64,000 bases of DNA. Source: Paragorgia papillata (Eukaryota > Cnidaria > Anthozoa > Scleralcyonacea > Coralliidae). Shown here piece after piece: positions 8,478 to 53,770 of this stretch; position 1 is the first letter of the stretch; the number at the start of each line of letters is the position of its first letter. A program made the translations under genes and the position numbers. The notes under the pieces were generated by a model that was not told the origin of the DNA, did no database searches, and was given only the letters and a program-made list of their open reading frames with translations. The stretch lies in contig JAWNZC010000261.1 in the NCBI GenBank assembly GCA_035771165.1, forward strand, positions 205,001 through 269,000, read 5' to 3'.

Positions 8478-8530
<53 letters not shown>

Positions 8531-8652
8531 TGAGTTTTGGTTCACGAAATGTTAGAGAGTGCTCAATACCATATATAGATAGAGCAAAATGGTAGCGAAG
8601 ACTTTAAGGTAAAACTATACTTCATACTTTATATATATATATATATATATAT
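8478..8652. repeat. Two (TA)n tracts bracketing a 100-bp insert
   Basis: A (TA)n run of about 50 bp ends at 8528 and a second of about 22 bp starts at 8631, followed by (TG)n. The roughly 100 bp between them is not repetitive. The same layout, unique sequence bounded by TA microsatellite, recurs at several places in this window. Confidence 0.8.
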
Positions 8653-20159: not shown

Positions 20160-20543
20160 ATCGAATAGACTATTCTATAAAATATTCCATATAGAATTCT
20201 ATAGAATATTCTATAGAATATTCTGTAGAATATGCTATTGGCACCTTATAGTCTATAGGAATTACAATTTTATCGAAACCTATAGGATTAGCCTATAAAA
20301 ATAGTCTATAGGAATTATAATATAGAAACCTATAGGATTAGCCTATAGAAATAGTCTATAGGAATTATAAAATAGAAACCTATACGATTAGCCTATATAG
20401 ATACCCATAGAGAGATTTGCCTATAGACGCTTAGGTCTATAGAAACCTAGCTATATAGGTTTCTATAGGTATTTGAACCTATAGACTTTCTGCCTATAGG
20501 CGCCTATAGAAACCTATAGGCGCCTATAGACTTTTTTCATAAG

Positions 20544-20574
<31 letters not shown>
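20160..20574. repeat. CTATAG-palindrome repeat linked to (TA)n, copy 2
   Basis: About 385 bp of AT-rich sequence saturated with CTATAG/CCTATAGG (phrases such as GAAACCTATAGGATTAGCCT and TAGTCTATAGGAATTATAA repeated several times), ending TTTTTTCATAAGGGT and then (TA)n at 20546-20574. The boundary is the exact inverse of 12528-12545, so the two arrays are inverted copies of one repeat type. A 60-70-bp internal period is visible at 20270-20400. Non-coding. Confidence 0.8.
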
Positions 20575-20579
<5 letters not shown>

Positions 20580-20584
20580 TCAAT

Positions 20585-20630
20585 CTACAGACACGGTGTT
20601 TTCGCTGTACTACAGCTCATCAGTGTAGCT
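20585..20630 (-). ncRNA. Hammerhead ribozyme, second copy with one inserted base
   Basis: Same elements as the upstream copy: stem I CTACA/TGTAG, CTGATGA, stem II GCTGTAGTACAGC and GTC at the cleavage site (20590/20589). However, the GAAA box reads GAAAA because of an extra T on the + strand (20599-20602). The extra A would bulge at the base of stem III and probably weakens activity. Confidence 0.75.
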
Positions 20631-20859
20631 TGGAACAATCTGAATGAATTTCATCAATTACTTATACACATGCGATCGTCGGTGACAACCGCATGTGGGA
20701 CAGCATCGGTGAAGTACATTCAGATAGCGTGAAGTGCGCATGGGCCCCGAGTGCTCAAACTTCCACAAGGGTAGTGAGCGTTGCATTATCGCTAATAGGT
20801 ACCCACGGCAACTTCACAGGGTGCTCAACAACACCGAAGTGAAGGAGCGTACATAGTTC

Positions 20860-20910
20860 AATCTACAGACACGGTGTTTCGCTGTACTACAGCTCATCAG
20901 TGTAGCTTGG
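20860..20910 (-). ncRNA. Hammerhead ribozyme (canonical core)
   Basis: Minus strand, 5' to 3': stem I strand CTACA, core CTGATGA, stem II GCTGT-AGT-ACAGC (5 bp), core GAAA, stem III ACAC/GTGT with a minimal loop, cleavage triplet GTC, and stem I return strand TGTAG pairing perfectly with CTACA. Every conserved hammerhead nucleotide (C3, U4-A9, G12-A14, A15.1-U16.1, C17) is present. Predicted self-cleavage is between 20868 and 20867. The very short stem III is typical of animal hammerheads, which often work best as dimers. Confidence 0.85.
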
Positions 20911-21155
20911 AACAATCTGAATGAATTTCATCAATTACTTATACACATGCGATCGTCGGTGACAACCGCATGTGGGACAGCATCGGTGAAGTACATTCAG
21001 ATATATATATATATTGTCATTTGTTTGATTGGCTAATTTTTTCGCATCTCATTAATTTGTTATTGTTATTTTTATCTGATTGACTTATTTTTGGTCACAT
21101 TATTATCCTTCTTATATAAGCTCGTTGTTTGTTTACACTCTTTACGTTTCTCTCT

Positions 21156-21284
21156 GACGAAGGGCCTTCGCTCGAAACGTTAGACTCCTACGTTCTCAGT
21201 AGTCTATCTAACTTTACTATATTTCGATTGTTGCTGCCTTCGCAGCATGCGCTACCTTTATTTCACTATATATATATATATATA
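21156..21284. repeat. Interspersed repeat ending in (TA)n
   Basis: CTGACGAAGGGCCTTCGCTC is followed by GAAACGTTAGACTCCTACGT. A nearly identical 26-base segment occurs at 3788-3813 after a related upstream sequence with the same palindromic style. The copy runs to a (TA)n tract at 21267-21284. Probably the conserved end of a retroelement or SINE family. Confidence 0.55.
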
Positions 21285-43440: not shown

Positions 43441-43611
<171 letters not shown>

Positions 43612-49686: not shown

Positions 49687-50139
49687 TTCGACGAAGTGTT
49701 GTGCTCGTTCGGACGATGTTTTGATTTTCGATTTACTTGTTGTGAGGAGACGAGCGCGAACGCAGGTCCCCCATTACCAGAAATTGTACGCTCGAGTTAC
49801 CCACATTTGGGGTAATCGTAGGAGTCAAGACAGTCGAGTTGCAATGAGAGGCCCTCGTCCTCAGAGGACTTCCTTGCTGATCAAAATACCTCTCGCGTCA
49901 GGTAAGTATGCCTGTGTATGTTGCGAAAATTCTATGAGTGGGTACTATGGGTCAGCGGCATGTGGAATTGTGGGGCTAGTATATACCCTCGAATAAAAAC
50001 AGTGACGAAAACTGTGTGCTTACCTCTTCGTGGCTCACGGCGGTGAAGAAATTGTGTACCATTTGGGTGCGGTCACTGCTAGAGCGTCTTTCGTTTACAT
50101 CTGCAAAATAGAAACAAGGCCAAAAATCAGTTTAATATA

Positions 50140-52915
50140 TAAGTAATAATAAATATAATAATAATTAAAACTTTTATAGCGCAAATTAACATTTGAATAT
50201 GATCAAATGCGCTTTACAGGAATTGATATTGACATATAAAATAAATAATGTAACTAATCTAATTACATATATAAAATAATTAATCTACTCAAACATTAAA
50301 CGCAATCTTAAAAAAGTGAGTCTTTAAAATATTCTTAAAACTTGTAAAATTGTTCGTGTTCCGAATATGTAACGGTAGCTTATTCCAGAGTGTTGGGGGC
50401 AGCAGATGTAAATGACCTATCCCCTAATGTCTTTCTGAGTTTAGCACTAGGTTGATTAAGGAGTAATACACTGTTAGATCGAAGACTATATATAGATCTT
50501 TCCCTAATACCTATTAAATTAATAATATATTCAGGCGCCAGGCCATGAATCGCCTTGAAAGTAAGGATAAGTATTTTATAGCTAATGCGAAATTTAATAG
50601 GCAACCAGGGCAGGGTATATAGCACAGGAGTTATATGGTCAAATCTTGATGTTTTGCAGATTATTCTCGCCGCAGAGTTCTGTGCACGTTGTAGTTTACC
50701 AAGATGGACTGACGGTAGACCATAGAGAAGGCTGTTATAATAATCCAGGCGCCCAATAATGAACGCATGAACTAACGTTTGCGTCGTTTCATTAGATAGG
50801 TATTTCCTAATGCACCTTATGTTATTTAAATGGAAATACACAGCTCTGCAGGTCTTATTGATATGCTCTCTTAAGTTGAGGTTAGAATCAAACCATGTTC
50901 CCAGAGTCTTAGCTGCACTAACAGGATTGATTTTAGATCCACCGACAGTTAGGTGATCAATGTTGACTTTACAAAGTTGTTGTTTAGTTTCAATAACCAT
51001 GAACTCAGTTTTTCCATCATTAATTTTAAGTTTATCCACTATCATCCATGTTCTTATGTCATTCACACAACGTTCCATCGCATCCAATGCCGCTGCCTGA
51101 CTCACTTCGCTATCTGGCTTGAATGAAAGGTAGAGTTCAGAATCATCCGCGTGTGCATGAACATCTGGAAGATGATTTCGTATAACCTGAAATAGCTTGC
51201 TGGAGTAAATCGTGAATAGCAATGGTCCTAAGCATGAGCCTTGTGGGACGCCTTGTAGGAGAGGAAAACTGTTCGAAACACAACCACTAAAGGTAATTCG
51301 CTGAGATCTATTCGTTAGGTACGATGTAAACCAGTTTAAGACATTTCCTCTCATTCCAAAGCTTGATGTCAAACGCGAAATTAGGATATCATGGTCAACA
51401 GTATCAAACGCCGCACTCAAGTCAAGGAACACCAACAAAGTTACGTGTTTCTTGTCCATATTCATAAGAATGTCATTATGCAACTTGAGTAGGGCTGTTT
51501 CGGTACTATGTCCTTGGCGGTATGCTGACTGTAGTACAGGATAAAGGTCAAACCGCATCATGTGATTGTGCATTTGATCAAAAACAGCACGCTATGTCAA
51601 TTTGGATATAAACTGCAAATTACTGATCGGACGAAGGTTGCAAAACTCCGAGTTTAAACCAACTTTCTTCAGGAGAGGACTGACAAGAGCTTTCTTCCAT
51701 TCTTCCGAGAATTGACCAGACGATAGAGATAGATTAACTATACACGTGATTATAGGTAAGAGCTCATCTAGGCACTTGACCACCAATGATGTTGGCATGG
51801 GATCTAACGAACAGGACTTTTTAGCTGACTTTTGGATAAGGGAGTTCACATCATCTTCAGTGAGAAGTTGGAAATCACTGAATGTTTGAGTATCATCTAC
51901 TTCCAGATCTTTAGGAACTACATCACGCGCACTCTTGTCTAAATCAACATCAATAGCCTCAATATCCGAACGAATTCCTTCAATTTTCTTCACAAAAAAT
52001 CTGCCGATGTCATTGGCTAAGGCTACTTTATCGCAGTAATGAGGGAAGGATACCTCGTCGCTCTTCCCTAGAAGTTTCTTTGCAGCTTTAAATAACCGAC
52101 CCTGATCAGCGCTGTTCTCATAAATGAAATTTCTATAGAACTCCCGTCTGGCCCGGTTCATAATGTATGTAACATAGTTTTTCTTCTTCTTAAAATTAAT
52201 GAAATCAATATCCGATTTCGTTCTTCTCCACTTCCTCTCTGCCTTTCTTCTTGAGCGTTTACAAGTGTTAATATCATCATTGTACCACGGCACAGCAGGT
52301 CTGACCACCATATTCTTGGTATTCAATGGGGCATGACGGTCTATAGCTTTAGAAAGTGTATTATTGTAATTCTGAACAAGGACATCAAGATCAATATGTT
52401 GGTTATTATATAAATCACTGCATAATGTAGATCCAGCCAAATTACTTCGAAGGGATTCCAAATTCACAGATTTAATCTTCCTGTAATTTATTTTCTTCAC
52501 AGTTATAGCTGGTTTGGACTCAAGTAAATTGCACAGGACTGACGCATGATCAGATATATAGCGGTCAACATATGGGAGGTCTTGTATGATATTATCTGAT
52601 AGGCGTGTGATTATTAAATCCAGTATATGTCCATCAACGTGAGTAGGTTGTGCTACGTGCTGTCTGAGGCCCAGAGACTCCATAAGATCAAGAAACTTCC
52701 GCGTTTCAGGTTGGTCAGCGGCATCCATATGTATATTAAAATATCCGGTAATCAACAATTGCTGTTTACACAAAAGAAGAGTTTCCATGTAATTCGCAAA
52801 CTCTGTGAAGAAAACAGAAGTTGCAACCTTGTGCTCTTCAGAGTATGGTGGACGGTAGATGTTAACGACCCGAAGCCAGGCGTTGCCTGGCATACCAGAT
52901 ATTAAGCTGATAAGA
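50140..52915 (-). pseudogene. Near-intact LINE (CR1/L2-like) with a single nonsense codon
   Basis: Minus strand: 52893-51592 and 51573-50380 are in the same frame, separated only by TAG in '...FISKLT*RAVFDQM'. The first part holds the C-terminal half of the apurinic endonuclease (NIYRPPYSEEHK, GYFNIHMDAADQ, GHILDLIITR, YISDHASVLC), then the linker and the RT start (LVSPLLKKVGLN, NLRPISNLQFISK). The second has LLVFLDLSAAFDTVDH (catalytic Asp), LQGVPQGSCLGPLLF, AHADDSELYLSF (the DD motif), and the C-terminal WLPIKFRISYKI region. A second break near 50395 shifts the last 35 codons (LWNKLPLHIRNTNNF...). The 3' end has GTAAAGCGCATTTG and an AAT-rich tail. It is 5'-truncated in the endonuclease and inserted, inverted, in an LTR element. 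Confidence 0.9.
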
Positions 52916-53770
52916 ACAGATACTACACTTGATCTTGTTTTGGACTCTACTCTTCCACGTAGGCCACATCTGATGACCCTGAGCTCATGCTCGCCTCATT
53001 GACTACCGAGTGGTGGACTGAGGCGCCCGGACTCAGTTCAATCCAGGAGACAGTGCTCTAGAAAGAAGACTAGGAACGGGATACGCGTTAGAAAAGTTAA
53101 AAAGGCCATAATGGCTTAGGAACTCAGCACGGCCGGGAAAGAAAGGGATCCGTCAGCAGACAAAAGGCCCAGAACACCCCCAGTAAGCCACTGAGACTCA
53201 AAAACGCAGGAGAACAGTGTCGCTGTTGCACCCGCAAGATAAACTTAAAGATGGATTTGACTTTCTTCAGCGACCGCAGGAGCTCTGGATGAATACCGTC
53301 AAAACGGAAGGAATTGTGGGCCACCCATAACGGATAAGCCCAAGGAGGGCTAAAAACCCTGGCGGTATATAGGCGGAACCCCGGTAGGTAAATCGCATCT
53401 GGATAGAAGCAGGACGAGGCACCAAGATCTCCCCAGATATCTCGATGGAAGCAGGACGAGGCGCCACTATCTCACCAAATCTCCCTACGCCATCTTGCCG
53501 GCTCCGGTAACTTACCTTCCGACTTATAGCGAGTCGCAACACCCCTCCTTGCGATGATCCTCGTTGTCAAATCTGCTTCTTCATCTCCAAAGCAGAAGAT
53601 TCTGGTGTCCGCCCCATTTCCTTCCACGACGTCCTCTCCGGTTCTGTGGTTCTCCCTTTTACCACTCGATCTGCCTGGTTACAGACCCAGCAGGTGTGCC
53701 TCGATTTGCGACGTGTGTCCACTCTCGCCTAAACCAGGGCACCCGTCCTTCAAATAAATCCACCAATATC
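52916..53770. other. Unassigned sequence between the LINE and the integrase
   Basis: Mixed GC content higher than the surroundings. Contains two short direct repeats (ATCTCGATGGAAGCAGGACG / ATCTGGATAGAAGCAGGACG near 53398 and 53443) and open frames without domains. It may be residual LTR-element sequence. Confidence 0.4.

Follow-up and report, generated by a model that had tools for sequence, protein, structure and literature searches.

Fixed 3' ends in TA microsatellites point to target-primed reverse transcription of a predicted circular RNA in a retrozyme family of Paragorgia papillata

A hammerhead-bearing tandem element in the analysed stretch of 64,000 nucleotides (hereafter, the window; C261:205001–269000 in a genome of 618 Mb and 473 contigs) belongs to a large dispersed family whose copies have their 3' ends fixed inside stem I of the ribozyme and joined there to TA runs, while their 5' ends are mostly truncated at varying places. 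A fixed 3' end together with free 5' truncation is a classical mark of target-primed reverse transcription. Judged by its sequence, the element is best classed as a metazoan non-LTR retrozyme with a distinctive integration footprint, both its cleavage and its circle being predicted. The model that we favour, with a probability of roughly 0.8, is that a self-cut transcript is closed into a circle of about 278 nt and reverse transcribed at a nicked TA run from a fixed start.

The tandem array of about 278 bp on the minus strand claimed by the original prediction at 20576–21001 is confirmed at 20576–21003, and so are its two hammerheads, one canonical and one with an extra A (structural scan and alignment), and the TA microsatellite at both array ends. 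The array is 428 bp long and comprises 1.54 units of approximately 277/278 nt according to alignment to the unit. The features of the locus are as follows.

20576..21003, minus strand: retrozyme array (unit alignment, self-match at 277)
20846..20917, minus strand: hammerhead 1, canonical type I (structural scan; HH9 21.0 bits, below the cut-off)
20900–20894, 20893–20881 and 20868/20867, minus strand: CUGAUGA, stem II and predicted cut of hammerhead 1, respectively; its stem III has 3 bp with a 3-nt loop, and its stem I has an internal loop (stems by reading the sequence)
20568..20640, minus strand: hammerhead 2, with an extra A beside stem III (HH9 18.8 bits, alignment)
20590/20589, minus strand: predicted cut of hammerhead 2
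20590..20867, minus strand: 278-nt unit between the predicted cuts, the predicted circle (circular fold)
20850..20855, minus strand: UAUGUA, putative priming site, unit positions 13–18 (array ends, exact junction counts)
20546..20574, no strand: TA run on the 3' side of the element in minus-strand sense (Tandem Repeats Finder)
about 21003..21015, no strand: TA run between the 5' end of the retrozyme and its neighbour (read from the sequence)
21016..21268, plus strand: neighbour, a 5'-truncated Penelope-like 3' end, CACTA and then a TA run, outside the retrozyme
21154..21181, plus strand: minimal hammerhead-like core of the neighbour, CTGACGA...GAAACGTT (pattern found once, 0.01 expected)

Ungapped self-match gives the array a period of 277 (132 of 166 positions), and the predicted cut sites lie 278 nt apart owing to an additional base in the copy nearer to 20576. 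One extra base is also the sole difference, over 150 nt, between the overlapping copies 20576–20726 and 20854–21003, and this near-identity suggests a recent insertion. A 24-base core pattern allowing up to three mismatches occurs twice in the window, at 20600–20623 and 20877–20900, and not once in 100 shuffles. When both strands of the window were scanned under strict structural rules, the canonical hammerhead alone was returned, hammerhead 2 being missed because of its extra A, which is also present in units from two other genomic places, L020 and L021, among 24 aligned ribozymes. The core has the type I form, with stems II and III closed and stem I open.

At the Rfam gathering cut-off, no hammerhead was found in the whole 64-kb window; the best local matches of the array are to HH9, with 21.0 bits (E 0.018) and 18.8 bits (E 0.09), the gathering score, curated for one family, being 52. 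The original prediction had proposed an Rfam check and named the lack of a significant hammerhead model hit as evidence against itself: the core and stems are present as claimed, and the model scores fall short. The low scores weaken the hammerhead label rather than the structure; by its core and stems, the hammerhead motif of the array is real, and the Rfam test is passed weakly. Folded as a circle, the 278-nt unit (GC content 47.8%) has a predicted energy of −92.3 kcal/mol, z −4.7 relative to 100 dinucleotide shuffles. No ORF of at least 130 aa overlapping the array was found, and likewise no enzyme encoded by the retrozyme. Window positions 20165–20530, immediately to the left of the array, are dense in palindromic repeats of the CTATAGG type.

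The genome search for further copies, also suggested originally, uncovered a large family, with 882 candidate places and 2,862 exact 3' junctions. Scoring the best 40 of the 882 candidates against a query of 321 bases yielded 130 matches. A length of 277 nt is shared by 85 out of the 135 whole units in the fetched arrays, distinct units (n = 109) have a median identity of 99% to the majority sequence, and the core and stems, by the pattern defined in this analysis, are kept in 139 out of 172 hammerhead-like sites. One array, made up of L038 and L039 and with a run of N at its start, comprises at least about 64 units. There are 2,330 junctions between adjoining units, which makes them less numerous than the 3' ends. 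Three pattern scans of viral contigs for relatives gave 0 matches.

We take the window copy to be a genuine retrozyme of a known kind, probably inserted recently. The same mechanism might also have operated in a family that no longer moves, with the window copy as its fossil, as could be suggested by the prevalence of short fragments among the sampled copies and by the extra A in the second ribozyme of the window copy. We regard this as improbable, since the copies in the window match over 150 nt except for one base and the median unit identity is 99%, which argues for recent spread.

The landing of the element in TA microsatellites, proposed from the window alone, is strongly supported by counts of exact junctions. 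The unit letters TGTAGATTGAACTA followed by TATATATA occur 2,862 times genome-wide, versus 0 and 1 for control junctions in which two other unit positions lead into TA (for the control with one match, the backward-read control also gives one). The 25-mer that leads from the cut site via GAACTA into TATATATA has 2,749 exact matches; the 2,862 count refers to the same junction minus the three letters before the cut. Hence, in 2,749 out of 2,862 junctions (96%) the unit sequence is continuous over the predicted cut, and RNA ending there could account for no more than 4%. These numbers are exact-match lower bounds and cover 3' ends in TA runs; they are not counts of independent events, because nine same-strand junctions cluster in C1:417016–425334, within 8.3 kb. 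Nested insertions and secondary amplification are possible readings of this cluster.

The array ends were delimited in 31 fetched stretches holding 34 arrays of at least 200 nt, eight of which were dropped since an end lay outside the stretch; the remaining 26, chosen by score, are biased towards long copies. In 25 of them, the 3' end falls at unit positions 11–19, counted from the cut, and the sole exception, a piece in L025, seems to be interrupted by another insertion. A TA run of at least eight bases lies within 35 nt of the 3' end in 22 arrays, of the 5' end in 20, and on both sides in 17 out of 26, the background for such runs being 1.5% of random 35-mers of the window. The 5' ends, in contrast to the 3' ends, are scattered over unit positions 8 to 274 (those of L015 and L032 rest on a poor fit to the unit). 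Target site duplications, expected to exceed 4 bp in metazoan non-LTR retrozymes when present, are unreadable here because both flanks are usually TA repeats.

Copy lengths were sampled at every fifth of the first 100 listed junction places (n = 20). Fourteen inserts are shorter than one unit (27–212 nt), three are longer (313–614 nt), and three exceed the 717 bases examined. A TA run of at least eight bases lies within 35 nt upstream of the insert in 11 out of the 17 with a visible 5' side, and microhomology of at least two bases is seen at six out of 12 TA-flanked 5' joints, compared with 6% expected from simulation. In two places, inverted retrozyme pieces abut the 5' side of the insert (around 737–820 of L019 and just before the junction in L081); these are perhaps fold-back or second-strand events. 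In addition, a dispersed repeat with terminal TA runs, which may be a landing ground for retrozymes, was observed in L011, L017, L064, and at about 8529–8628 of the window (minus strand).

These end patterns bear on whether the family could be an ordinary satellite spread by DNA recombination (unequal crossing over, extrachromosomal DNA circles) and containing a hammerhead by chance. The array of L038 and L039, with at least about 64 units, speaks for such a process, and unequal crossing over would homogenise arrays as well; DNA circles, however, predict equal phase at both ends, whereas the observed 3' end is fixed and the 5' end free. Moreover, 14 out of 20 sampled copies do not reach the length of one unit yet have that same 3' end, and 139 out of 172 ribozyme sites are intact. 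Taken together, these observations leave the satellite explanation very little probability.

We therefore return to target-primed reverse transcription of a circular template, which would proceed in the following way. The transcript would be cut by the predicted hammerhead ribozymes and closed into a circle of about 278 nt. A TA run would be nicked, and its end would anneal to UAUGUA, the 3' strand of stem I, 13–18 nt past the cut; a primer end TATATA could pair with UAUGUA with one wobble. The enzyme, presumably supplied by an autonomous element, with a Penelope-like element cutting AT-rich DNA as the leading candidate, would copy the RNA round part of a lap or several laps, and the 5' end would be sealed in TA sequence, often via microhomology.

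As the start lies 13–18 nt past the cut and copies run on across the cut, the template should have been either closed or uncut, since on a linear monomer left by cleavage only 13–18 nt would be available for copying. The choice between the two is less certain. In eight out of 31 multi-piece arrays (L011, L019, L025, L026, L033, L035, L036, and L037), every covered piece carries a private variant absent from the pieces of other arrays, with three such fully private shared variants in L033 and two in L019; the other 23 arrays have none. Private shared variants are as expected if one molecule was copied lap after lap, and for this reason a circle is preferred over an uncut multimer, although homogenisation in DNA could equally yield them and long arrays may have grown in DNA. 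High within-array distances, up to 0.19–0.23 in L009, L016, and L022, are tentatively attributed to poor alignment of partial units.

The competing possibility is that a linear uncut multimer or a read-through transcript serves as the template and its (UA)n tail passes the 3' junction on, in which case both the ribozyme and the circle would be dispensable. Nearly all 3' ends read GAACTATATATA, as such inheritance would have it; uncut RNA would likewise span the cut site, as 96% of the junctions do, and a Penelope-like element of Anolis inserts ribozyme-dead as well as active RNA (PMC11167929). On the other hand, the junctions of L011, L015, L033, and L028 hold unit letters beyond GAACTA, TATGTA being retained before the TA run in the first three and TATGTG in the last, which excludes an inherited GAACTATATA tail as their source; this retention fits priming at slightly different places. 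The private variants in eight out of 31 arrays also fit one molecule copied repeatedly, even if a homogeneous parent array would produce them too. We consider the linear template unlikely. As far as the junctions indicate, the template RNA was continuous over the ribozyme site and most probably circular.

The features listed above allow us to compare the layout of the family with that of known retrozymes. Metazoan non-LTR retrozymes (Acropora, Mytilus, axolotl), as described in the sections of Cervera and de la Pena (2020, PMC7229834) used here, have type I hammerheads, low-GC tandem units of 150–450 bp, a strongly self-paired predicted circle, and Penelope-like elements in the genome. The retrozyme reading is supported accordingly: hammerheads of type I, tandem units of about 277 nt, within the 150–450 bp range, GC content of 48%, below 50%, a stable self-paired predicted circle, a large family of dispersed copies, and Penelope-like elements were all found in our data. 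The circles of those retrozymes have been seen by northern blot (PMC7229834, in part), whereas the present circle is predicted from sequence. The copies described in the same sections are tandem dimers and larger arrays, and the priming step is left undecided there, in contrast to the present family with its 3' ends fixed inside stem I and joined to TA and its mostly 5'-truncated sampled copies; as to the mechanism, these sections propose circular templates, priming by the target or by a small RNA, and Penelope-like elements as candidate helpers.

Plant LTR retrozymes are likewise non-autonomous hammerhead elements for which spread via circular RNA is supposed, but, according to the relevant parts of PMC7229834 and PMC7761336, they have a type III hammerhead, LTRs, a primer site, and 4-bp target duplications. 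Assignment to this class was rejected, as the hammerhead here is of type I, with stems II and III closed and stem I open; nor was a layout of the plant kind noticed. A possible parallel is the small viroid-like RNA of carnation, whose DNA copies are reported, in the part of PMC9695139 concerned, to lie in microsatellite-like genome sequence. Among titles and abstracts on retrozymes, target priming, and microsatellites, we found none in which animal retrozymes are described as having a constant 3' end or as targeting TA.

A closer mechanistic likeness is provided by Poseidon of Anolis, where, similarly, the RNA is reverse transcribed from an internal point downstream of a hammerhead, targets are AT-rich, and 3' ends are clustered (PMC11167929). 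The start in the Anolis element lies 85–92 nt past the cut (computed from the text of PMC11167929) in a sequence not homologous to the target; the retrozyme, unlike it, starts 13–18 nt past the cut, at UAUGUA able to pair with TATATA.

The neighbour of the retrozyme, separated from it by about a dozen TA bases and lying in the opposite orientation, is read as a Penelope-like element from its sequence relationships. The element is dispersed: the search of the genome gave 2,261 candidate places, of which 40 were scored. ORFs upstream of three copies (L044, L047, L055) match GIY-YIG below the curated cut-off (E 0.0033–0.028), and RVT_1, PF26215, and GIY-YIG occur in relatives of the ORF in L044 found among the best 120 of 765 (e.g., P0232, P0238); in solved structures, no relative of the Penelope-like ORFs was found. 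The neighbour-type core, which resembles the minimal hammerheads described for Penelope-like elements (PMC7761336, in part), is present in 18 out of 19 measured rows of related copies (L041–L059), and the 3' end of the family, with 1,662 exact matches, is situated 91–103 nt after the predicted cut in 18 out of 19 rows reaching the end by similarity, rows with an earlier match end, e.g., L052 and L059, being excluded. For the copy in the window, this distance is 91 nt by similarity and 87 nt to A21268 by direct reading. A Penelope-type enzyme as the helper is supported by the closeness of 91–103 nt to the 85–92 nt of the Anolis element; the much shorter distance in the retrozyme, 13–18 nt from cut to start, tells against it.

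The neighbour family itself was considered as a helper sharing the target and rejected: a straight TA run follows only two out of 18 copies (that of the window and L053), and in L044 a TA run starts two bases beyond the 3' end. The family mostly does not land in TA runs, so that it is not TA-selective in the measured copies. No helper was found among sequences recurring beside TA runs, where the dispersed repeat with TA runs was retrieved.

Other hammerheads of the genome form separate groups. Rfam Hammerhead_1 has 50 matches in the genome, and none of 14 control genomes is positive. As further retrozymes, the 20 of the 50 that were fetched (L060–L079) were rejected, having no similarity to the unit. 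One dispersed element, near position 1506, is common to 17 of these 20 places (L061–L063, L066–L079), with one above-cut-off hammerhead per copy about 270 nt before the end of the element. An ORF in L068 and L079 is, as we presume from inspection by eye, of Penelope type. In the middle of the remaining three stretches (L060, L064, L065) lies a third hammerhead type, CTGACGAGTCCC/CTGATGAGTCYC...GAAACAGCTGTCCACAG, flanked by longer complementary arms.

Elsewhere in the window, ORFs of a LINE endonuclease and reverse transcriptase occupy 50380–52893 of the minus strand; a piece of U2 snRNA (52875–52932, minus strand, model positions 27–84) overlaps their start, and a full-length U1 match (49745–49909) follows them on the same strand. 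The whole region 49745–52932 is possibly an snRNA-linked LINE insertion. At 43441–43611, a run of about 171 G (97% matches) gives rise to a spurious polyglycine ORF. For two proteins of the window, the relatives that bear a name belong to Paramuricea in the first case (4 of 20 rows) and, in the second, among 120 of 203 rows, to Paramuricea, Actinostola, Acropora, Montipora, Actinia, and Oculina, in keeping with an anthozoan host.

The return of animal retrozymes into DNA is treated as an open question in the part of PMC7229834 that addresses it, and the footprint of a fixed 3' end bears on it directly, as it shows where on the RNA reverse transcription began, which target was used, and that the template was joined across the ribozyme cut. 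Extending the model to animal retrozymes in general, we lean, with less confidence than for the present family, towards rolling-circle target-primed reverse transcription, in which a TA nick would be primed on UAUGUA in the hammerhead of the circle and the circle copied over anything from part of a lap to tens of laps, seeding satellite arrays in microsatellites. If this is true, the ribozyme that makes the circle also contains the priming site; with the start inside the ribozyme, as in the present family, the same 20 nucleotides would serve cleavage, closure, and priming. This would be one possible route by which RNA seeds satellite arrays.
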